64,000 nucleotides of DNA. It comes from a virus. Below, piece by piece: positions 4,240-32,579 of the stretch. The DNA lies in the IMG/VR virus record IMGVR_UViG_3300037493_003260, positions 20,089 through 84,088 of that record; one strand, written 5' to 3'. The notes beneath the pieces were generated by a model that was given only the letters and a program-made list of their open reading frames with translations, had not been told where the DNA came from and did not search any database. Positions within the stretch are counted from its first letter, which is position 1. The number at the start of each line of letters is the position of its first letter. The translations under genes and the position numbers were made by a program.

Positions 4240-6426
4240 TTAGGCTGCGATATTGATAATCCTGCCTTGGAACGCTTCGCAGGTCATTTGAAGTACCGAG
4301 AATTCGGCAATCAAAGTCCTGTAAGCAGACTGAAGCAACGCAAGGTCGATAGCTGACAACGGCATGAGGTCAACCATCTGCACTGCGTTACCGTCTTCCA
4401 ACACTGTTTTGTCGTCGATGACGAGGGCAAAAGAATCACCATGAACGTCTTCCACAATATAGCGAGAGCCGATAATATCGACCAAGCCAAACGGGGAAAG
4501 CCATTTGGTAATACTGATACCAGCGGGAATATCCGCCATCGTACCAGCTCCTGCCTGGAACAGCTTGTAATAGCTGGACATCACCAGTTCGGAAATCTTC
4601 TGCAACTCACGATAACCAACAACAACAGCTTGAGGCTTCCCACCCTTGTTCACGATTTTCTTGCAAACTGCAGTTAAATCGGAAAGAGCTAAGGGCTGAT
4701 TAACGCCGCCAACTTTGCAGTCTTGAACGTTCGTCACAATCTGTTTGTTAAGACCATCGAACTGAAGCGGAGAGACCGAAGAATCGCCGTTGATAATGGC
4801 CCATTCTTCAATCAACGCTACGTTCAACATCTTGGTCTTAATTTGGTGCTTCTTAATATCCGTGTACGTCCCGCCAGCCATTTGTTCAAAGAACGAAACG
4901 GTAGCAAGGTCGCCCACACTGACATAAGGAGCCGATTTGTAAACGTAAGACGGCTGAGTAGCAGTCGGAAGCCCACCTTTGGCAAAAAAAGCATCCTCAG
5001 GGGCAGTTCCACCAAGGAACAGATGACCAGCAGACTGTGCGCCTGCGGAAATGGTCGGAATTAGCTGGTACCAAGCATGCACTAATGTTACGCAATCTTT
5101 CGATTGGGATTGCTATTTCTAGCAACCTCTCATAGTTACCTATGAGGTCGGACTATATCATCACTATACTAGTGTTCGGCGTGTAGTCTCTACGGATTCT
5201 ACTAGGTATTCTTAGTAGCCTTTCCTCGGTATTGTCCTTTGCAGGAGGTTCACCGATATAGCCAAATTTTACAAGGCCCATTGTGTTAAGCCTTGCCGTT
5301 CCCTTGAATCCGATTGAGTCGGTTTCGGAGCGGAGTGTCCGTTGGTGCCATAATCGCCCAAATAAGATTTCTCTTATGGGATTGTTACACTGTAAATTAG
5401 CCAGCGGTTAGGGCATTTCTGCCTAACTCTGCATGTCACCATGCAGTTCGGACTATATCTTCAATTTAAGATTCGTCATGCACTAGGTTTGCGAATGTTG
5501 TTAATTTGATTACTATATCCGCTAAGCCTTCTTAAATGTGTGGCGTTGAGTCTCTGAGGGAGTAAGTTGATACATTCATCTAAACGGTCTGATTTTCGTT
5601 TGATTGAAAATCGACACCCAGCTCTAATGAAAGAAGCTACGTTGAACCTGTAGTGGACAACTGGCTTAATACTACCTGCAAAGCCACCCTTACAGATTAA
5701 CGGTTTGGGCCAAACTGAAACTCCAAGGGAAGTTAAAAGCTTGTTGTATTGAGCAAGTAAATCTGTGTCTGTTGAACAATAGCCTATTTGATGTCTATAG
5801 GTATCAAAGTGCTTCTGTTTAGACTTGCTAATATAACCGTCTCCATCTATAAAGCCAGTGATTAACTTATGCTTTACAATTGGAAGTGCTTCCCAGGTTT
5901 CGTCTGGTAAAGATGACCCATTTTTCGTTGCCAGCAGTACCCATCGGCAGAGTTCGTCACACCGTACAAAAACGTTGTAAAGGAGCTTTCTAGTGCCCCG
6001 TTGCTGTTCAGAAATAGTAACCTTTCTGCCCAGTAATTTTTGTAAAGTAATTGCGACGGACTCAGCAAAGTCTTTATCGGTAACAGATAAACAAAATCTA
6101 TAACAGTTATCTTGTGTAAGATTAATGCATCCATCACTGAAATAAACACCTATGAGATATGCTGTGTTTGAGTCAAGTTTAAATTGTATCATTTTACCTT
6201 TCCTGCTGATTGTCTTCTATACTCTATTATACCATATTTTTACACTTTGGTAATGGTATATTTATCAGAAGATGTTCCAGCAAATAGCCACATTATGAGA
6301 CAGCGATTAACCTATCTCAGCTTGGAGGTCCTCACGAACCAACATCAAGCCGTCAACTGGAGTGGAACTAATAGCCTTCTGAATATCTTGAAGTGCTTGT
6401 TCTACGAGTTGAGCATTGTATGACAT
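4240..6426 (-). CDS. Major capsid protein (HK97 fold), gene split by two group I introns
   Basis: Three exons on the minus strand. Exon 1 runs 6426 to about 6310, starting at an ATG behind AAGGAGA and encoding a helix ending LVREDLQAEI. Exon 2 runs about 5372-5289 and encodes a TPLRNRLNRIQGNGKA segment typical of the start of this capsid family. Exon 3 runs 5079-4240 and begins HAWYQLIPT. The joined protein is ~344-346 residues, the usual size. Exon 2 to 3 is supported by reading frame and by a seven-pair P1 helix with T.G at the splice site. The exon 1 to 2 junction is less certain: 6310|5372 or 6314|5370 both keep the frame. The GTG at 5082, read as a start by simple ORF calling, is the last base triplet of intron 2. 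It sits after the protease-scaffold gene, as expected. Confidence 0.88.
5080..5288 (-). other. Group I intron 2 in capsid gene (209 nt, no ORF)
   Basis: Bounded by GGCAAGGCT|TAACAC and ACATTAGTG|CATGCT. P1 is CAAGGCT with GGCCTTG, giving T.G at the 5' splice site, and exon CAT can pair with ATG upstream of the guide (P10). Core elements are present in order: a P4-like GACAATACCGAGGAAAGG, a P7 strand GACTA, then GATATAGTCC (P3'/P7') and a P9 hairpin CTCATAGGTAACTATGAG. It ends in G. Subgroup IA is likely. Confidence 0.85.
5373..6309 (-). mobile_element. Group I intron 1 in capsid gene, carrying a LAGLIDADG endonuclease
   Basis: About 937 nt between exons 1 and 2. The core has AATCAGCAGGAAAG (P4) just before the internal ORF and GAAGATATAGTCCG (P3'/P7') after it. 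These are followed by CTGCATGGTGACATGCAG, a hairpin that matches my memory of the 3' domain of the T4 td intron (IA2). GAGATAG can pair with CTGTCTC as P1, which would place the 5' splice site at 6314/6313 rather than 6310/6309. The endonuclease ORF lies in the loop between P6 and P7, the usual place. Confidence 0.85.
5476..6192 (-). CDS. Intron-encoded LAGLIDADG homing endonuclease
   Basis: 238 residues with two motifs: LIGVYFSDGCIN near residue 13 and LITGFIDGDGYIS near residue 111. This is the double-motif monomer that cuts an intronless capsid allele to spread the intron. The ATG at 6192 uses GCAGGAAAGG as ribosome site, and this sequence is also part of the intron catalytic core, so ribosome loading and folding compete. 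An extended -10 (TGGTATAAT, 6226-6233) lies upstream inside the intron, but a matching -35 box is not clear. Confidence 0.9.
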   Translation of the reverse strand: MIQFKLDSNTAYLIGVYFSDGCINLTQDNCYRFCLSVTDKDFAESVAITLQKLLGRKVTISEQQRGTRKLLYNVFVRCDELCRWVLLATKNGSSLPDETWEALPIVKHKLITGFIDGDGYISKSKQKHFDTYRHQIGYCSTDTDLLAQYNKLLTSLGVSVWPKPLICKGGFAGSIKPVVHYRFNVASFIRAGCRFSIKRKSDRLDECINLLPQRLNATHLRRLSGYSNQINNIRKPSA

Positions 6427-10174: not shown

Positions 10175-11752
<1,578 letters not shown>

Positions 11753-11769: not shown

Positions 11770-12000
11770 TTAGTTTACAACTTTTATGGAGGCGGTACCG
11801 TCTCCATTATCCTCGGCTGCAAGGGGAAGGTAGCCTGTGATTTGGCCGCCAGCATCCACAATCGCAATCATCGGGACATAAGTGCTTTTCATATTCTCGT
11901 CATAGGGAATCGCAGGGACTGGCTGTTGCACAGCTGCCATCTGGACATCCTGAGGACGAGTTGTTAATCGTTGAAAAATTTTCTTTAAAAAAGTAAACAT
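11770..12000 (-). CDS. Small protein sharing fibre N-terminal domain
   Basis: 76 residues from the ATG at 12000 (AAAGGAG upstream, overlapping the stop of the nuclease gene as TAATG). Its C-terminal half ([37 protein letters not shown]) is clearly related to the N-terminus of the 525-residue collagen-like protein next to it. The start is a basic amphipathic helix (MFTFLKKIFQRL). Perhaps an anchor or partner subunit of that fibre. Confidence 0.7.
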   Translation of the reverse strand: MFTFLKKIFQRLTTRPQDVQMAAVQQPVPAIPYDENMKSTYVPMIAIVDAGGQITGYLPLAAEDNGDGTASIKVVN

Positions 12001-12278
12001 TAAGACTCCTTTTTGTGCTGAGAAAGCCATCGTTTAAGACTAGCCCTTATTTTTAATTTTGTTTCCTTAGTTAATGTTGCACCACCTGGGACTGCTTCTA
12101 AAACTAGCATTTCTGGGTATAGCTGCTGCTTTCTTAAAAGCCTTACCCAACGATGTTTGTAAGTATCAGTTACAACAGTATGGCAATGGGCATAAAGTCT
12201 CTGTTCTAAATTGGCAGTCTGTCCAACGTATCGTACTTCTTTTGTAACTGGATGGCGTAACACATAAATATAAATCAT
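12000..12278 (-). CDS. GIY-YIG homing endonuclease, probably truncated internally
   Basis: 92 residues with IYVLRHP...VRYVGQT.N...R..H, the GIY-YIG core with its catalytic Tyr and Arg. The C-terminal TKETKLKIRASLKRW is the DNA-binding NUMOD3-type motif. The segment that normally carries the catalytic Glu (ERxWI) is absent: EAVPG runs directly into GATLTKE. It lies between portal and fibre genes with tight TAATG junctions on both sides. Likely a decayed mobile gene. Confidence 0.8.
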   Translation of the reverse strand: MIYIYVLRHPVTKEVRYVGQTANLEQRLYAHCHTVVTDTYKHRWVRLLRKQQLYPEMLVLEAVPGGATLTKETKLKIRASLKRWLSQHKKES

Positions 12279-15735: not shown

Positions 15736-16082
15736 TTTTTGTTAATAGCTGTCCGTTTTACAAACGCCTTGAGCAGCCCTCTTTCGATGAGTTCGTCGTT
15801 GTAAGATGTGTCTTTTCCAGAAAGATAAAGGAACGCAAGATATGTTCCAGATTTCTCGGACTTTAAAGACTTGACGGTTACCTCTTTGTTAAGAAGTTTT
15901 TCGGTCAGTGTTTTCTTTATAAGCGTTGCCTTTTCAGGATTTTTATTTCCACGAAATTCCAAAAAGTCTATTCCTGCAAGCCGAAACTCTTGGTTTTTTA
16001 ATACTCCGAAACCCAGGTCAACAGTAAGGATAAGGCATTCCTCGCTGATAATTTCTGTTACAAGTGCCAGATATTTATGCAT
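15732..16082 (-). CDS. Staphylococcal-nuclease-like (SNase) domain protein
   Basis: 116 residues. VLKNQEFRLAGIDFLEFRG keeps the Arg, Asp and Glu of the SNase active site (Arg35, Asp40, Glu43 in S. aureus numbering). The C-terminal KSGTYLAFLYL...YNDELIERGLLKAF is the typical ending, but Arg87 of the usual KYGR motif is replaced. Activity is therefore uncertain. No signal peptide. It lies between protease and HAD genes. Confidence 0.7.
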   Translation of the reverse strand: MHKYLALVTEIISEECLILTVDLGFGVLKNQEFRLAGIDFLEFRGNKNPEKATLIKKTLTEKLLNKEVTVKSLKSEKSGTYLAFLYLSGKDTSYNDELIERGLLKAFVKRTAINKK

Positions 16083-18543
16083 GTAAATCTTCCTTTATTG
16101 CATCTATTGCGGCTTTCGCATCAACCAATCCCACGCCGCATTCATCAGCGGTAAAGGCTAGCGGTTTTGCGGTTGTCTTAAGAAGGTGCTTCACTGCAGC
16201 ACACCGTTCTTTATAATCTTTGGTCCAACTTGGAGCCGCCTCAAGAATTAGTGCACAAATTCCTGCAACCACTGGGGTTGCCATAGAAGTTCCACTCATG
16301 CGTTGGTAGGGCACAGCATCTGATTGAACAGAACAATTATTCATGGGGGTATCGGCACTTTTTACCGATGTAACCCCATTTTCGTAATAGCAACCACCAT
16401 AAGAAGCTTTAGTGCCACCGCCTGGGGCTACAAGGTCAGGCTTGGTTAAATTCACACCGTTGAAAATCACAGGGCCACGGGAACTGTAGCGTGTAATCTT
16501 GTTGTCCCTGTCTACTGCACCGACAGTAATTACTTTTGCAGCACAACTAGGGGACCCAATTGTATTTGCTCCAGGGCCTTCATTTCCTGCGGCCACAACT
16601 ACAACAATGCCTTCAGAAGCCAGTGCATCTGCTTCCCGTGAGATGGCATCATCAGGAGTTCCTTCGCCACCAAGACTCATGGAGATAATATCGGCTCCTT
16701 GGTCGGCAGCCCACGACATTCCCTTAATCACGGTATCGTTTGACCCGTGCCCGCTGTCGTTTAAAACCCGTGCATCTATAAGAACAACTTTTGGGGCAAC
16801 GCCACGATAAAGTTTTCCACCGCCAGCGATTACGCCAGCACAATGCGTGTTATGAGCAATAAAGCCATTTGCTGTATAGTTATGGTTTTTAGTGACTGTA
16901 AAATCATAGAGAGTGGTGTTCGTATCTTGTATTGAAATATTACAAATCTTGTCAGCAACTCGACGATGGCAGTTTGGATTCTTTAGCTTTTTAAAGTGTA
17001 AAAATTTGCCGAGTTCCGTGTTACAAGAGAGGCCTACAGCGTAGCACATATTTTTATTTCCGAAGGTACTCTTATTAGAGCTGTGTTTACAAATCCAAGA
17101 ACGAATACCTAAGGCCTTAAGTAGGGAACAAAGTCCATCGGCAAATTGTTTGCTTCCAGTAATAATTCTAGCTTTGCTATTAATACAGCCATCTCCATCA
17201 ATGGCCCCAGCCAAAAAAGAAAAAATAACACTTCGAGGAGACTTAGAAATAACGTAAGGTAACGTGACAGTTAGTGATTTGTTTCCAATAGGAATTCCAA
17301 GCTTATTAAATAAAAATACCAATTCTTTGTTATAGACGGAAACCCTATACGTATTGCGTTGCCTAAGGTCTTTCTTTACTTTCGGGGCATAATCAAATAA
17401 CTCCTTAAAACCGTCGCAAAAATTTTGAACCAATTCAAGTGAATTACTAGTAAATTCGATTCTGGCGTTGCATCCAGCCTTCTCTTTTTTTAAATAGGAC
17501 AAGTGACCGTCAGTTAATACTAGACCTACTAGGTACGCTAACTTTTCATTAACAGGCAAATTACTACCTCTAAATGGCACATAATGGTAATCATTTATAT
17601 CTAACGAAGAATCTGTAAGTTTGATGCACTCACCGACTTGGAGTTCATCAGCCCGTTTTTCTTTAATTGTCAATTCATGGCCCCTTGTTGAGGTAACCAC
17701 AAAAACCTTGTGCCACGGCGTTAGGGCTAAACTACCACCTCTTGTGGTAATAGTGTACAACTTTCCAGTGTAAGGAATTTTATGTACAAATTCCATTTGG
17801 TCTGGCTCACATATTCCCTGAAGATTACAAGAAATGGTTTTAATGTTAAATCGTTTAATGTCTTTAACAGTAGAGCCATCCGTTAACTGGTAGGATTCTC
17901 CTGGAGATTTTTCGTATACAGTTTCGATTGTTTGCAATCCGCACAACGATGTGTACACTTTGGTATTGGCAGTTATACAGCCATGACCAACGCCATCCAG
18001 TTTTGCAATCTTGGGTGTTTTGGGGCGATTCCAAAACCATTTGCCAAAATAATCAGGCTGTGAAAAATCATACCGAGCAACTACTTTTCCTGCCAGGTCG
18101 GGGTGTCTGTCATTGATTCCTGTATCGACGACAGCGACTTTAATTCCCTTTCCTTCGTACCCTGTTGTGGCTCTCAGTACAGAAACTTCTGTCTGAACTG
18201 CTGCCCTATCCATATAAGCTCTGACTTGTTTCACAGGTTCAATGTCTACGTGGAGTTTCTCCTTGAGCCATTCCATTTGCTCAGAGGTTAACGCTGATTG
18301 AAATTCAACAACCATGGCGTTAATACGCCGATGGAGTTGAATTAGTTTTCCGCCAAATTTTGCAATATCCTGAAGTTTTACGCCTGCCCGATTAAGAACT
18401 AGAAGAGCCGTAAGAAATGCGACTCCTGCAAGAAGGGGGTGCTTTGTAAAAACAGATTTAATGATTTTGCCAGCTTTAAGATATAAGAAATATCTCGGCA
18501 AAACATTTTCTTGACGTTGTAAATTTGTGATTTCTAAACTCAT
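16075..18543 (-). CDS. Subtilisin-like serine protease interrupted by an intein
   Basis: 822 residues before splicing, 445 after. A hydrophobic segment near residues 35-52 could anchor it in a membrane or virion. Peptidase S8 motifs: VAVVDTGINDRHPDL (Asp140), GHG|THCAG (His187) and MSGTSMATPVVAG (Ser). The intein occupies residues 189-565, between G and T of HGTH, two residues after the catalytic His. The C-extein has the oxyanion Asn (VAAGNEGPG). Virion-associated subtilases may process structural or host proteins. Activity should depend on protein splicing. Overlaps both neighbours by a few bases. Confidence 0.92.
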   Translation of the reverse strand: MSLEITNLQRQENVLPRYFLYLKAGKIIKSVFTKHPLLAGVAFLTALLVLNRAGVKLQDIAKFGGKLIQLHRRINAMVVEFQSALTSEQMEWLKEKLHVDIEPVKQVRAYMDRAAVQTEVSVLRATTGYEGKGIKVAVVDTGINDRHPDLAGKVVARYDFSQPDYFGKWFWNRPKTPKIAKLDGVGHGCITANTKVYTSLCGLQTIETVYEKSPGESYQLTDGSTVKDIKRFNIKTISCNLQGICEPDQMEFVHKIPYTGKLYTITTRGGSLALTPWHKVFVVTSTRGHELTIKEKRADELQVGECIKLTDSSLDINDYHYVPFRGSNLPVNEKLAYLVGLVLTDGHLSYLKKEKAGCNARIEFTSNSLELVQNFCDGFKELFDYAPKVKKDLRQRNTYRVSVYNKELVFLFNKLGIPIGNKSLTVTLPYVISKSPRSVIFSFLAGAIDGDGCINSKARIITGSKQFADGLCSLLKALGIRSWICKHSSNKSTFGNKNMCYAVGLSCNTELGKFLHFKKLKNPNCHRRVADKICNISIQDTNTTLYDFTVTKNHNYTANGFIAHNTHCAGVIAGGGKLYRGVAPKVVLIDARVLNDSGHGSNDTVIKGMSWAADQGADIISMSLGGEGTPDDAISREADALASEGIVVVVAAGNEGPGANTIGSPSCAAKVITVGAVDRDNKITRYSSRGPVIFNGVNLTKPDLVAPGGGTKASYGGCYYENGVTSVKSADTPMNNCSVQSDAVPYQRMSGTSMATPVVAGICALILEAAPSWTKDYKERCAAVKHLLKTTAKPLAFTADECGVGLVDAKAAIDAIKEDLHA
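16849..17979 (-). mobile_element. Intein with LAGLIDADG endonuclease inside subtilisin gene
   Basis: 377 codons. Starts with Cys (CITANTKVYT, block A); block B is LTPWHKVFV. Two LAGLIDADG motifs are LAYLVGLVLTDGHLS and FLAGAIDGDGCIN. Block F/G is YDFTVTKNHNYTANGFIAHN, ending His-Asn, with Thr as the +1 residue. All residues needed for class 1 splicing are present. The endonuclease motifs look intact. Confidence 0.92.
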
Positions 18544-23665: not shown

Positions 23666-24193
23666 CTATTGAAATTTATTGTATTTTTGATGATTTAAAA
23701 TTGCAGGAATAATTTGCAAATTCCATGGAACATGCAAACCGCAAACAAGGCTATTTTTAAGCGGGACGATATGGTCCACGTGATGCAAAATTCCTGTACT
23801 TTTAGTCATTTCTTTACAACGAAGGTAAACAGCTTTTAATTCGTCACTGTTAACCCAGAAAGGTTTGGCGTGCCGTTTGGCAGCTCGGCGACTTGCATGA
23901 TGAGCATTCATAATGCCCAAGTTAGCTTTTCGCCAAGCTTTATTATAGGCTAAAACTTTGCCTTTATTGGCCAAATAGTGCTTGTGCACTTTTGCACGAC
24001 CTTGTTCTGGATGTGTTTTAGAATAATGAGAAACAACTAACTTGTAATGCTCAGAATTTTTAGACTGCCAGGGTCGTACATATTTAGAACTGTGACAGCT
24101 TTTGCAATGCGAATAAAGTCCGTCTTTTGCTCTACTGTCTTTATAAAAGTCGAGTTTGCTGAAGAAACTCTTGCAAGTTGCACACTGCTTCAT
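23666..24193 (-). CDS. Free-standing HNH homing endonuclease
   Basis: 175 residues. An N-terminal CATC...CKSC zinc knuckle typical of this phage's HNH paralogues precedes a basic helical spacer. The HNH core is HHVDHIVPLKNSLVCGLHVPWNLQII...NHQK. It overlaps the terminase stop by four bases (ATGA), so it sits at a classic homing site beside an essential gene. Likely intact. Confidence 0.88.
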   Translation of the reverse strand: MKQCATCKSFFSKLDFYKDSRAKDGLYSHCKSCHSSKYVRPWQSKNSEHYKLVVSHYSKTHPEQGRAKVHKHYLANKGKVLAYNKAWRKANLGIMNAHHASRRAAKRHAKPFWVNSDELKAVYLRCKEMTKSTGILHHVDHIVPLKNSLVCGLHVPWNLQIIPAILNHQKYNKFQ

Positions 24194-26877
24194 ACTTTTT
24201 TACCATAGAATGTTAAGTGGCTTTTTTCATCATCATCAGGCCTACGAAAGCCGTTGCTGTTTGCTAACCGTGTGGTTCCTGCAACCCCTGCGCTAAACTG
24301 TGCTTTGGCATTTTTGATGCACAAATTGACAACAGCGGCAACTGCATCTGCAAGGTCCTTGCTTCCTTCTTTGCGACCTTCTTCAAGTGACCTTCGATAA
24401 GACATCTCTGGATGGTCCACTTTGCCGTTTGGTTTTCGGATGAGTTCTTCGCACTCGCGAATGAAAACTGGGTGGTGATAAATGTCAAGCAAACCTTTGT
24501 AGATTTGTTCTTTCAAGGTGTCGTAGGCTTCGGTACTTCTGTCAACTGATTGTACCTCGGCAGGGATACCTTGCTTAATTAAAAGCTGCACGCTGTCAAC
24601 AGAGTTGTGAACAAAGATACCAGCAGACAAAGCAAAATTATGTGTGGCTGGAACTTCGATGTCGTATACGTCTTCATACCCAGCAAACTCAACAGAGACA
24701 ACTTTATGGTTGTTGGCACCGCACTTAGTTTTGCTAATTTTATCCTTGGTTTCTTGGCTTCGTTTTTTGCCCGTCCAATAACCAGGATTGCCCTTGTGAG
24801 CATCAGACATCTTCTTGGCATACACGGGGTCTTGCCAAAGTTTTTTAATGCTAGCACTAATCTTTTTTGCATTGGCAGCATCGGGCGGCTTTAACAGTGC
24901 TGGGAGATTAAACTTTTTGTTTCTCTCAGCCATCAACTGTGCTTGCCGTTTGCGTTCACCAGGAATGGCCCAACGTTTTTCACTAAGGGCTTTGTGTAGT
25001 GCTACGTGTTTCTTTACGTGAATATAGACCAAGTTTTCTGGGCTATTGTTTAAAGGGTTAAAATCTTTATGATGAACAACAAAATCTTTTGGCTTAGGAC
25101 CATAGCAGGTAGCAGCAACTACGTTATGCGTAAAATCCCAGGTTTTAGTCTCAGCATTATAAATCTGTTCATACTGTCGGACAGAGCCATCCTTACGCTT
25201 GTAAGGCTTCACGTATTTTGTATACAAAGGCATTAAACTGTCACCAGGCTGTAAAAACTGCACCTGTCTGTAGGTGCCATCACGCATGAGTATCGGGTGG
25301 TCTGGAGTAAATTCAACAGTCTCGCCGCTATCCAAAGTTACACGGTATACGGGAACTTTGGTACCAGTTTTTCTTACAGGCTTACAAAGTGCTGGAACAA
25401 TGCATCCAGCCTTTAAATCGTAAGAATATATCCACGTTTCCTTGGTAAGTTCGTCTATTCGTAAGTCGTTACCATTCAACAACTTAACCTTGTTGCTTCC
25501 TAAAGTACATTGCCAGCCATCATACGTAACCATTTTAATATTAAAGCCACTTTTATAAAGACCTTGTATAAACTGACGAAATTCATCAAAAATAATCTCT
25601 TGTCCAGGACGTGCTCGGACCTGCATCATAAAATCAATGACTGCAGCAGGCTGCTTCTGTGTACTAATATTTGCAGTTGAAAGTCCCTCAGCTTTAGTCA
25701 ATTCTTTTATGTAGTCGTCGCTGAGATTGATACTCTTATTACGAGTAAAGTGCCCCATGGCAATGCCCGAATAGTCACCAGATTCTTTGCCTTTGGCCAA
25801 GTCAATGTGTATAAAATAAGGCTGATTCTTAATCGGTCTAAAGAAATCCTTGAATTTCAATTTTAAAATGTCGTTTGTCCAAATGGCATCTCCTTCAACA
25901 GGAGACACACGATTGGGGTTTATGATGTCCTTGATGCGAGATTTGTATTTAAAATAGCCCTCAGCGGCTGTTGAACCCTCACACTCGTAGATACGCTTTG
26001 CGTCTTCAGGACTCTTTAAATAGTCATCTGCGAAGTCAGCCTTGGTACGTTTAACATTCCAAACCCACGTTGGGGCTTTCACGCGAAAGGTCTTTGCTTC
26101 CTTCTCTGCCTGCTGATAACGAATCATCATAAAATCGTTGTCGTCACGTTTGTATGATATCAACATCGTTTTACGATTAGAACCAAAGCGCGTTTTTTGA
26201 GTGGAGACAAGGGCTGTGTAGAGCTTGTCGGCCTTGCCTGGGTCAAAACCCCCCACTTCGTCGAAGATGGCCAGAAGAATATTTAAGCCTTCGCCAGTGT
26301 ACTCTTCGCTATCCAGTGAATAAGCCGTGATAGCCTTCGGAAATTTGATTTCACGCGTTTGAATGTCTGCTTTAAGGTCAAGACCGTGTTCCTCAAACCA
26401 GTTCTTTTTGGTTTTTGGATTTCTGCAAACGCGAATCATAGCAATAAGATTTTTAAAGAACACGTCTTTGGCAAGTCGTGCGTTTAGAGAAACGTTAGCT
26501 AAGTCGATTGCGGACTCAGGGGCATCCTCGGAGTTGTTATTGATGCCTAGCATTTTCTGCGGATTTCTCATGCACAGCAATTTATACACACAGTAAAGAA
26601 AGACCTTACAAATCGTTCGGTCCTTCCCACCCCCCTTGCCCACCAATGCAATACCCTCGTCATATGTGGCATCCCATATCAGTGGGTCAGTGCCAAGCAT
26701 GGCCTCCACGAATTTCTGCTGCTCTGGATAACAAGGCTCGTGCAAAAACTTTTCAAAGAAGACCGAAGGTGAAACTGGAATCTCTTCCCAAGTGTCATCA
26801 GTGCGGCGCAATGATTTGCTAGCAGCTGACGCTGCATTTTTTACCAGTTCAAAATCACTATTGTCCTGGAGTGACAT
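24190..26877 (-). CDS. terL: Terminase large subunit with intein
   Basis: 895 residues before splicing, 593 after. The ATPase has a Walker-A-like GKGGGKD at residues 80-86 and Walker B LLAIFDEVGG with Asp206-Glu207. The nuclease half begins YFIHIDLAKGKESGDYSG (catalytic Asp), has IIFDEFRQFIQGL, and ends with DLADAVAAVV after the intein. The intein lies between TYDGWQ and SVDSVQLL, a conserved part of the nuclease domain. TerL pumps DNA through the portal and cuts concatemers. Follows the small subunit with a 20-bp overlap. Confidence 0.93.
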   Translation of the reverse strand: MSLQDNSDFELVKNAASAASKSLRRTDDTWEEIPVSPSVFFEKFLHEPCYPEQQKFVEAMLGTDPLIWDATYDEGIALVGKGGGKDRTICKVFLYCVYKLLCMRNPQKMLGINNNSEDAPESAIDLANVSLNARLAKDVFFKNLIAMIRVCRNPKTKKNWFEEHGLDLKADIQTREIKFPKAITAYSLDSEEYTGEGLNILLAIFDEVGGFDPGKADKLYTALVSTQKTRFGSNRKTMLISYKRDDNDFMMIRYQQAEKEAKTFRVKAPTWVWNVKRTKADFADDYLKSPEDAKRIYECEGSTAAEGYFKYKSRIKDIINPNRVSPVEGDAIWTNDILKLKFKDFFRPIKNQPYFIHIDLAKGKESGDYSGIAMGHFTRNKSINLSDDYIKELTKAEGLSTANISTQKQPAAVIDFMMQVRARPGQEIIFDEFRQFIQGLYKSGFNIKMVTYDGWQCTLGSNKVKLLNGNDLRIDELTKETWIYSYDLKAGCIVPALCKPVRKTGTKVPVYRVTLDSGETVEFTPDHPILMRDGTYRQVQFLQPGDSLMPLYTKYVKPYKRKDGSVRQYEQIYNAETKTWDFTHNVVAATCYGPKPKDFVVHHKDFNPLNNSPENLVYIHVKKHVALHKALSEKRWAIPGERKRQAQLMAERNKKFNLPALLKPPDAANAKKISASIKKLWQDPVYAKKMSDAHKGNPGYWTGKKRSQETKDKISKTKCGANNHKVVSVEFAGYEDVYDIEVPATHNFALSAGIFVHNSVDSVQLLIKQGIPAEVQSVDRSTEAYDTLKEQIYKGLLDIYHHPVFIRECEELIRKPNGKVDHPEMSYRRSLEEGRKEGSKDLADAVAAVVNLCIKNAKAQFSAGVAGTTRLANSNGFRRPDDDEKSHLTFYGKKV
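24604..25509 (-). mobile_element. Intein with HNH endonuclease inside terminase gene
   Basis: 302 codons, beginning Cys457 (CTLGSNKVKLLNG) and ending FALSAGIFVHN, with Ser as +1. Block B is VEFTPDHPIL and block F is VYDIEVPATHNF. Between them lies an HNH domain (DFVVHHKDFNPLNNSPENL ... HVALHK) and a NUMOD-like helix (SQETKDKISKTK). Unlike the subtilisin intein, it uses an HNH nuclease, so the two inteins were acquired separately. Confidence 0.92.
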
Positions 26878-31465: not shown

Positions 31466-32034
31466 TTTGTTGCCTCAGTCTCTGGCTTCTTTGAAGCCTT
31501 CTCTACATCAAACCCTGCCCCGAATTTCTGAATGTGCTCTTTGTATTCTTCGCTCAGAAAATCCGTCAACTGTTTGAAGTTGTGAAAGATTTTTCCGCCA
31601 TTCTTAAAGTTATCTCGTAGCAACGAAAGAATCCAGTCATTGAATTCTGTCACGGCTTGGTAACTCACAGTGTAGATGGGAATGCCCTTTTGCCATGCCT
31701 CCACAATTTCGTGAACAGTTCCGCCATACTTTTTCGCAGGGTCATACAAAAGAATCAGAAACTTTGATGTATTGACGCAAGTTAAATCCGAGCGACGAAT
31801 ATCTGCTAATACCCTATCCCAGATTAGCCATTCTCCACCACGTTTCAGATTCTCCAGTTTCTTTTTTTGTTCTTCCATGGTTGTAGCCAAACTGTGGTTG
31901 CACTCTGACTTGCATGGGTCTAAAACAATGAACCCATCATCGGCCAAAGTTTTCGTGAGTTTTTCACGCCAACCGATGCCCCCATCAGCAGCATCCTGGA
32001 TACTTCCAACTAAATATGTGCTGTATCTTAACAT
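31462..32034 (-). CDS. Nucleoside 2-deoxyribosyltransferase-like protein
   Basis: 190 residues. YLVGSIQDAADGGIGWREKL, FIVLDPC, a WDRVLADIRRSDLTCVN segment and GGTVHEIVEAWQKGIPIYTV fit the nucleoside 2-deoxyribosyltransferase / YtoQ-like fold: a glycine near the start, an Asp in the second block and a Glu in the helix (HEIVEA). Family members handle the N-glycosidic bond of nucleosides or NAD-like compounds. A second relative is at 51981-52439. Could act in nucleotide salvage or counter-defence. Confidence 0.7.
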   Translation of the reverse strand: MLRYSTYLVGSIQDAADGGIGWREKLTKTLADDGFIVLDPCKSECNHSLATTMEEQKKKLENLKRGGEWLIWDRVLADIRRSDLTCVNTSKFLILLYDPAKKYGGTVHEIVEAWQKGIPIYTVSYQAVTEFNDWILSLLRDNFKNGGKIFHNFKQLTDFLSEEYKEHIQKFGAGFDVEKASKKPETEATK

Positions 32035-32579
32035 GTTTGAATCCTATCCGTATGCCTTGCTATTTGCATACAATGCTCAATAAACTCCGAGCGAGAAGAA
32101 TCTACTTTCATCCAGTTACACAGTTTGCAACAAGAAACCAGATTCTCTAAAGTGTACCCTATGGTGTTATCTACACGGTCTAAGCCAATGGTATCAATGG
32201 AATTTCCACAATAGCTACAGGATTTATTCCAGAATTGCATAAACTCTGCAAAAGAAATATCGAAAGATACTGGCTTGGACCTTTTGGAAGCATTGCGTCT
32301 GTAGTTTCCAAAACACTGCCTGGGCGACATACGGTACTTTTCCTTGTTTTTGATTTTGTTCTTTCTTTTGTAACCCGCAACAGCTTCTGGATGAGTTGCC
32401 TGCCAAGTGGCTACCCGTGTCAGTGCAGCATTGGTATGTTTTATATAGTAGGCAGCCTGCTCAAGTTTTATGCATTCTTTACAGAGACACGTAAGTCCGC
32501 TTTTTGTAGATTTGTTATTATAAAACTGCCTTGAAGTTTTAAACTTTTTACAGCAAGGGCACAGTCGGTAACTTCTCAT
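32028..32579 (-). CDS. Free-standing HNH homing endonuclease
   Basis: 183 residues. CPCC...CLCKEC knuckles at the start, then CSYCGNSIDTIGLDRVDNTIGYTLENLVSCCKLCN..K. The C-terminal 60 residues are nearly the same as those of the gene at 41692-42180, showing recent common ancestry. Overlaps both neighbours. Confidence 0.88.
   Translation of the reverse strand: MRSYRLCPCCKKFKTSRQFYNNKSTKSGLTCLCKECIKLEQAAYYIKHTNAALTRVATWQATHPEAVAGYKRKNKIKNKEKYRMSPRQCFGNYRRNASKRSKPVSFDISFAEFMQFWNKSCSYCGNSIDTIGLDRVDNTIGYTLENLVSCCKLCNWMKVDSSRSEFIEHCMQIARHTDRIQTC

Follow-up and report, generated by a model that had tools for sequence, protein, structure and literature searches.

The orf142 gene of phage Twort is said to carry three group I introns, and it resembles the locus described here in that several group I introns interrupt a single virion gene. 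It differs in encoding a tail tube protein and in undergoing exon skipping, according to excerpts of PMC11878797. Excerpts of other published reports describe further related arrangements. The capsid gene of the zeta-group crAss-like phage OLRF01000054 is split into five fragments, with group I domains in 3 of the 4 gaps (Yutin 2021, PMC7886860), and the major capsid gene of mycobacteriophage LittleE contains one intron, “most likely” of group I, for which splicing was demonstrated by RT-PCR (PMC3706429). In the ribonucleotide reductase gene of phiNIT1, a small exon lies between two group I introns, as established by cDNA sequencing, and both a small inter-intron exon and exon skipping are reported for Bastillevirinae (PMC11878797). 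The mean length of group I introns in Jug phages is about 206 nt, and there are 18.5 of them per genome (PMC12363816); the excerpted account of placozoan cox1 describes an exon of a single base (PMC5436844). With regard to gene preference, phage introns are described as favouring nucleotide and DNA-metabolism genes (excerpts of PMC11878797 and PMC12350094).

Here, we analysed a 64,000-nt stretch of viral DNA (hereafter, the window), comprising bases 20089-84088 of an 84,088-nt IMG/VR virus record, in which the minus-strand major capsid gene (6426-4240) very probably consists of three exons split by two group I introns, whose removal by predicted self-splicing would yield a 340-aa capsid protein. 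The gene product matches Pfam SU10_MCP (PF17236; E 1.2e-13, 51.7 bits versus a cutoff of 24.1) over residues 138-341 of the first-pass 344-aa protein. The genes for the portal (14122-12278), an S78-type prohead protease (8366-6465) and the major capsid protein follow each other in that order on the minus strand, with other frames interspersed, and this arrangement, together with the Pfam match, places the protein among the SU10-like major capsid proteins. The gene is present in a single copy in the record. A tblastn search with the first-pass capsid protein against 50,697 phage records gave no match at E 1e-5, and a capsid alignment scan of genome contigs returned 49 pattern matches, none of which was a relative. 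A scan for promoters and terminators gave 7 promoter-like sites versus 4.6 (sd 2.3) in shuffled sequences, and the one located before the intron-encoded endonuclease frame (6253-6226) is not significant.

The surroundings of the capsid gene contain other elements of potential interest, all on the minus strand. A 92-aa GIY-YIG ORF (12000-12278) comes immediately after the portal gene, whose stop codon it overlaps with its first base. The subtilase gene (16075-18543) contains a LAGLIDADG-bearing intein (Intein_splicing, E 4.9e-17), inserted near the active-site motif HGTHCAG. A large, terminase-looking protein (24190-26877) likewise harbours an intein, with HNH_3 and NUMOD3 domains, and has no Pfam match outside it, and a 183-aa ORF (32028-32579) has a CxxC/HNH-like look by eye and no Pfam match. 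Two collagen-like repeat proteins (1830-2945 and 10175-11752) are, judging from such repeats, presumably tail or fibre components.

Exon 1 (6426-6314, minus strand, 113 nt), delimited by translation and alignment to relatives, starts with the ATG at 6426, for which the ribosome-binding site looks good by eye, and ends in GAGAT. Exon 2 (5358-5289, minus strand, 70 nt) supplies the last base of codon 38 followed by AIMAPTDTPLRNRLNRIQGNGKA, occurs once in the record and was delimited with the help of a close relative (locus L003, protein 91% identical) and the other loci that cover the junction. Exon 3 (5079-4240, minus strand, 840 nt with the stop codon) carries the SU10_MCP match. Joined, the 113, 70 and 840 nt form one frame without a stop that encodes 340 aa, and the relatives are about equally long. 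Read unspliced from the capsid ATG, the frame stops after residue 39; in-frame TAA codons begin 5 nt past the start of intron 1 and, in intron 2, with its first base, which rules out an intein.

The junction between exons 1 and 2 was fixed by alignment with intronless capsid homologues, as had been proposed in an earlier, sequence-only reading of this DNA, which was to fall if homologues lacked the exon 1 and exon 2 segments; both segments are present in them. The motif QAE[M/L]AIMAPTDTP is unbroken in all 12 loci that cover the junction (13 were found), two of which, L004 and L013, are interrupted by an intron at another position of the gene. In L003, the DNA at this position reads GAA ATG GCT ATC ATG GCA CCG, and the spliced junction of the window reads GAG ATG GCG ATT ATG GCA. 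From the unbroken motif of the relatives, exon 2 is 70 nt long, and a start at this position also fits the 6-bp P10 helix of intron 1. We rejected a first-pass exon 2 of 82 nt, which has the intron end after CATAAGAG, because the four residues that it adds are absent from all covering relatives. At the other junction, removal of intron 2 restores NGKA-HAWYQ, so that precise removal of both introns reproduces the intronless allele of L003 and other relatives. The sequence-only reading had thus correctly recognized a capsid gene of three exons that together give a product of normal length, two group I introns around a tiny exon, an endonuclease in one intron next to a minimal ribozyme of exactly 209 nt in the other, and the interruption of the conserved segment between NGKA and HAW, but it had put exon 2 at about 82-84 nt, a length now corrected to 70 nt from the relatives, the L003 DNA and P10.

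Intron 2 (5288-5080, minus strand, insertion site C, between NGKA and HAW) has no ORF and scores 65.9 bits against Rfam RF00028, above the gathering score of 50. Its P1 (CAAGGCU:GGCCUUG) places a U.G pair at the splice site, and the strands of P1, P3, P4, P5, P6a, P7, P8, P9, P9.1 and P9.2 pair; P6, P9.2 and P10 were read from the sequence, and P10 comprises, by eye, only 3 bp (AUG with CAU at the start of exon 3). Intron 1 (6313-5359, minus strand, 955 nt, insertion site B inside codon 38) scores 44.6 bits against RF00028 (E 2.3e-9 in a 3.4-kb search), which is below the gathering score, and 35.4 bits against our own covariance model R1, whose training set includes intron 2 and from which intron 1 was left out. 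The Rfam search that the sequence-only reading had called for thus upheld its assignment at the gathering score for intron 2 and fell short of it for intron 1. All 6 pairs of the intron 1 P1 (UGAGAU:GUCUCA) form, with U.G at the 5′ splice site. The 3′ strand of P10 (5352..5357, minus strand; GCGAUU, bases 2-7 of exon 2) pairs 6/6 with AAUCGC at 6308-6303, and the strands of P3, P4, P5, P9, P9.1 and P10 pair; the assignment of P7 and P8 draws on the sequence and the Rfam alignment, and that of P9.2 on the sequence.

Both introns thus display the group I core of P3-P8 with the P7/P3 pseudoknot, intron 1 doing so while sub-threshold in Rfam, and both have the U.G pair at the 5′ splice site and a terminal G. 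The core motif GATATAGTCC, which had been noticed in both introns at the outset, is present at 5459 and 5159 of the minus strand, with no further copy on either strand of the 64 kb, and the P9-type hairpins that had been recognized in both were recovered by strand pairing. Subgroup IA of group I introns is defined by the extra helices P7.1/P7.2, and by eye neither intron shows such helices between P7 and P3′, where only about 3-4 nt separate the P7 5′ strand from P3′. With either RF00028 or R1, introns 1 and 2 are the only matches at E <= 0.001 in the 84,088-nt record.

Further evidence comes from covariation in the family to which intron 2 belongs. A search with a P3-P4-P5 core pattern yielded 102 stretches in viral contigs, and of 38 distinct short introns, 22 non-redundant ones, including that of the window, were aligned. 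With P3, P4, P5, P6, P7 and P9 named, 94.0% of the 614 cells of this alignment are paired, and 14 of the 28 pairs show double-sided changes, namely, 5 of 6 pairs in P3, 5 of 6 in P9 and 3 of 4 in P5, with P4 invariant; one P7 pair changes from A-U to G-C in 3 sequences. None of 500 shuffles reached the observed value on any of five measures, and slid structures were 28-42% paired, a comparison in which the structure, having been named from the sequence of the window, is favoured over the slid controls and the shuffles ignore relatedness. Together, the E-values, the relatives and the covariation exclude chance.

Intron 1 contains a LAGLIDADG endonuclease ORF (5476..6192, minus strand) of 238 aa, which matches Pfam LAGLIDADG_3 (E 6.9e-14) in two stretches and holds both motifs, LIGVYFSDG and LITGFIDGDG, with their acidic residues in one open frame. 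A PDB search at E 1 returned the LAGLIDADG enzyme I-AniI (two rows, E 0.4 and 0.44) and one unrelated protein. A single-sequence query of viral contigs gave 15 pattern matches, with no close relatives of the endonuclease among them. By eye, the frame starts just after the P4′/P6 strand and covers the P7 5′ strand, P3′ and the P8 5′ strand. As a rival reading, intron 1 could be a decaying intron with poor or absent splicing, in which case the gene copy in the window would yield little complete capsid protein. Its score of 44.6 bits against a gathering threshold of 50 and the dominance of an ORF that overlaps core strands are what one could cite for such decay, but P1 with its U.G, the 6-bp P10, P3, P4, P5, P9 and P9.1 all pair, the ORF is open, and a comparable intron in L004 is likewise sub-threshold at 46.5 bits. 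Moreover, the capsid gene is single-copy in the record, so that loss of splicing should be lethal, and we consider decay unlikely.

Alternatively, capsid synthesis could be switched off in a regulated manner by skipping exon 2 and joining exon 1 directly to exon 3; skipping of exons flanked by group I introns has been reported for Twort orf142 and for the terminase gene of phage SIOphi (excerpts of PMC11878797). In the window, however, joining exon 1 to exon 3 causes a frameshift with a stop after 43 residues, giving a dead product only, and nothing in the sequence favours skipping over ordinary splicing, which makes such a switch quite improbable. Conversely, since the 70-nt length means that skipping shifts the frame, exon 2 has to be included accurately. 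Production of the capsid protein from exon 3 alone, starting at a GTG at 5082 (the mechanically called ORF 5082-4240, 280 aa) with the upstream pieces as relics, is hardly credible, given that no ribosome-binding site is seen by eye before the GTG, in contrast to exon 1, that the exon 1/2 segment is kept in 22 uninterrupted relatives except for the first 9-19 residues in 7 distant ones, and that much of this segment is invariant in a 10-sequence alignment. Splicing of all three exons into one capsid message remains the reading that we favour.

Group I introns splice by a two-step, guanosine-initiated route. For the capsid gene of the window, each intron would fold about an internal guide of its own (P1); a bound guanosine would cut after the last U of the exon, and the freed exon end would then attack after the terminal G of the intron, joining the exons. 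Intron 1 is potentially mobile: its LAGLIDADG enzyme would cleave capsid genes that lack the intron, at the junction sequence or close to it, and probably spreads the intron. Intron 2, which encodes no enzyme and lies 70 nt away, could be carried along in the repair tract of intron 1. Such co-transfer, which we treat as a hypothesis, would be readily possible given that the two target sites are only 70 bp apart in the intronless allele. The exon boundaries, the ribozyme elements, the open enzyme frame and the existence of relatives that lack the introns of the window are all directly visible in the sequences; splicing, cutting, homing and co-transfer are what we infer from them.

The distribution of introns among relatives bears on these steps. 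Our scan for relatives was anchored only in the end of exon 3, so that split genes would not be missed, and recovered 26 loci, 25 of which are informative, one (L014) being cut inside the gene. Over the aligned part, 22 of these 25 are uninterrupted and 3 carry one intron each, none having two. The introns of L004 (19-935) and L142 (2591-3487), both with LAGLIDADG ORFs, occupy site A, between VRED and LQAEM, which lies 14 nt (four codons plus two bases) upstream of site B, so that two nearby positions in this stretch of the capsid gene have taken up introns; the third (L013/L149), with an HNH-like ORF, is at site D, after KIKMV. These introns resemble those of the window in interrupting a gene of the SU10-like capsid family, in being of group I and, as intron 1 does, in bearing endonuclease ORFs, and the endonucleases of L004 and L142 are homologous to that of the window (29 and 32% identity, respectively), but each gene has a single intron, at another insertion site, rather than two. 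At the gathering threshold, Rfam found nothing in 13 relative loci, and at E up to 0.5 in 4 of the 13, only the L004 intron was detected, at the score given above; the L013 intron scores 88.8 bits against R1. Sites B and C are unoccupied in all 25 informative relatives, and thus homing at these sites has no backing from the distribution.

Exon 2 itself could hold a trace of transfer. Its protein sequence is identical to those of L003 and L004 in 23 of 23 codons, and synonymous differences amount to 13/22 versus 89/272 in the rest of the gene for L003 (nominal p 0.019) and to 14/22 versus 84/251 for L004 (nominal p 0.009), both p values being nominal because exon 2 had already been noticed as the least similar segment. 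This excess is consistent with import of exon 2 alongside the introns. However, L003 and L004 are themselves unusually alike in exon 2 (1/22 differences versus 76/269 elsewhere), so that part of the excess may stem from them, and the two comparisons are interdependent. An unguided change-point search did not point to exon 2 specifically: the best tract against L003 spans codons 27-67, a non-significant result reached by 76 of 400 permutations, and that against L004 spans codons 174-195 (1 of 400), outside exon 2.

The window is not an isolated case. A pattern-based census of the intron family gave 111 hits, 4 without and 107 with a 40-aa fragment, and the upstream frames of 104 of the 107 were scanned, leaving out L054 and two of the three hits of L110 (one an intron ORF, one mostly within an intron). 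Among these 104 frames, and with the provisos that both the pattern and a crude upstream-frame rule skew the census and that one member may match several families, PHROG matches included the major tail protein phrog_4574 (17 members, best E only 1.4e-4), the major head proteins phrog_1357 (12) and phrog_2522 (3), tape measure families with up to 4 members each and endonuclease families with up to 12, at least 12 of the 104 frames being endonuclease ORFs; as for DNA-enzyme families, there was one member each for Holliday junction resolvase and DNA repair exonuclease. Given how often the family lies in capsid and tail genes in this pattern-selected sample, the gene preference described for phage introns may in part be a consequence of the choice of phages studied so far.

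Contigs with phrog_1357-like capsid pieces form 20 groups, and in 6 of these the gene is in three or more pieces, a count that gives no estimate of frequency because the loci were chosen for carrying an intron. In 4 of the 6 (L040, L064, L122 and L131), every gap matches the intron-alignment profile, and in the other two (L118 and L073) one gap has no such match. The most fragmented gene that we reconstructed, L138 (2268-6981 of G001:C1:42500-50500; also in G002, the two records being identical across the 75 nt tested), reads as seven exons and six introns, with exon boundaries that we chose for a U before and a G at the end of each intron, for frame and for likeness to gp27, the major capsid protein of Bacillus phage G. 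As read, the spliced product would be 285 aa long and identical to gp27 in 120 of 289 aligned columns, and one exon would span only 14 nt (5371-5384); we found no phage exon of 14 nt described in the open-access literature, the domain of our search, with most subscription papers lying outside it. All six introns have a covariance-model match, introns 1, 3, 4, 5 and 6 with R1, weakly for intron 1 (22.1 bits) and with intron 5 belonging to the training set, and intron 2 with RF00028 (21.6 bits). In another locus, L139 (about 2010-2580 of G012:C1:65000-69500), two strong RF00028 matches (82.3 and 72.9 bits) are separated by only some 40 nt, which suggests a further pair of introns flanking a very short exon.

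We therefore offer, tentatively and as a possibility that may well prove wrong, the generalization that several unrelated lineages of environmental phages have capsid genes of the serial-intron type, in which neighbouring group I introns, only some with an endonuclease, accumulate in conserved coding stretches around exons as short as 70 nt (in the window) or 14 nt (in L138), and might travel as a block, an enzyme-less neighbour and the tiny exon between being carried by co-conversion through the enzyme of the other intron.

Capsid protein is usually one of the most abundantly produced proteins of a phage. In the window, two ribozymes must splice accurately around a 70-nt exon, with the frame lost if it is skipped, and the pairing of introns with and without an endonuclease offers a clean test of whether an enzyme-less intron is mobilized by its neighbour. 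There are practical consequences as well: only exon 3 is a long ORF, so that capsid annotation is at risk, and an exon of 14 nt would escape gene callers. For the wider pattern of serial introns in virion genes, the window offers a useful starting point.

How, then, does this locus compare with the described systems, as far as the excerpted reports go? It shares with OLRF01000054 a phage major capsid gene interrupted several times, with group I signatures, but the latter is a gut crAss-like gene in five fragments, whereas the window has an SU10-like gene with two introns, a 70-nt exon and exact boundaries. LittleE likewise has a capsid intron preceded by U, ending in G and associated with a LAGLIDADG-like ORF, but there the intron is single and the ORF is on the opposite strand (PMC3706429). 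The ribonucleotide reductase gene of phiNIT1 has a small inter-intron exon like that of the window, but is not a virion gene. With two group I introns in one gene, the window belongs with the multi-intron phage genes, and given that intron-bearing phage capsid genes are already in print, with one intron in LittleE and several in the zeta crAss-like phage, its kind is already known. The initial description of twin introns as unusual was, accordingly, overstated: several introns in one capsid gene and small inter-intron exons have both been reported, and we found further serial-intron capsid genes. The window is a well-resolved new example of an arrangement already seen in phages rather than a new mechanism.
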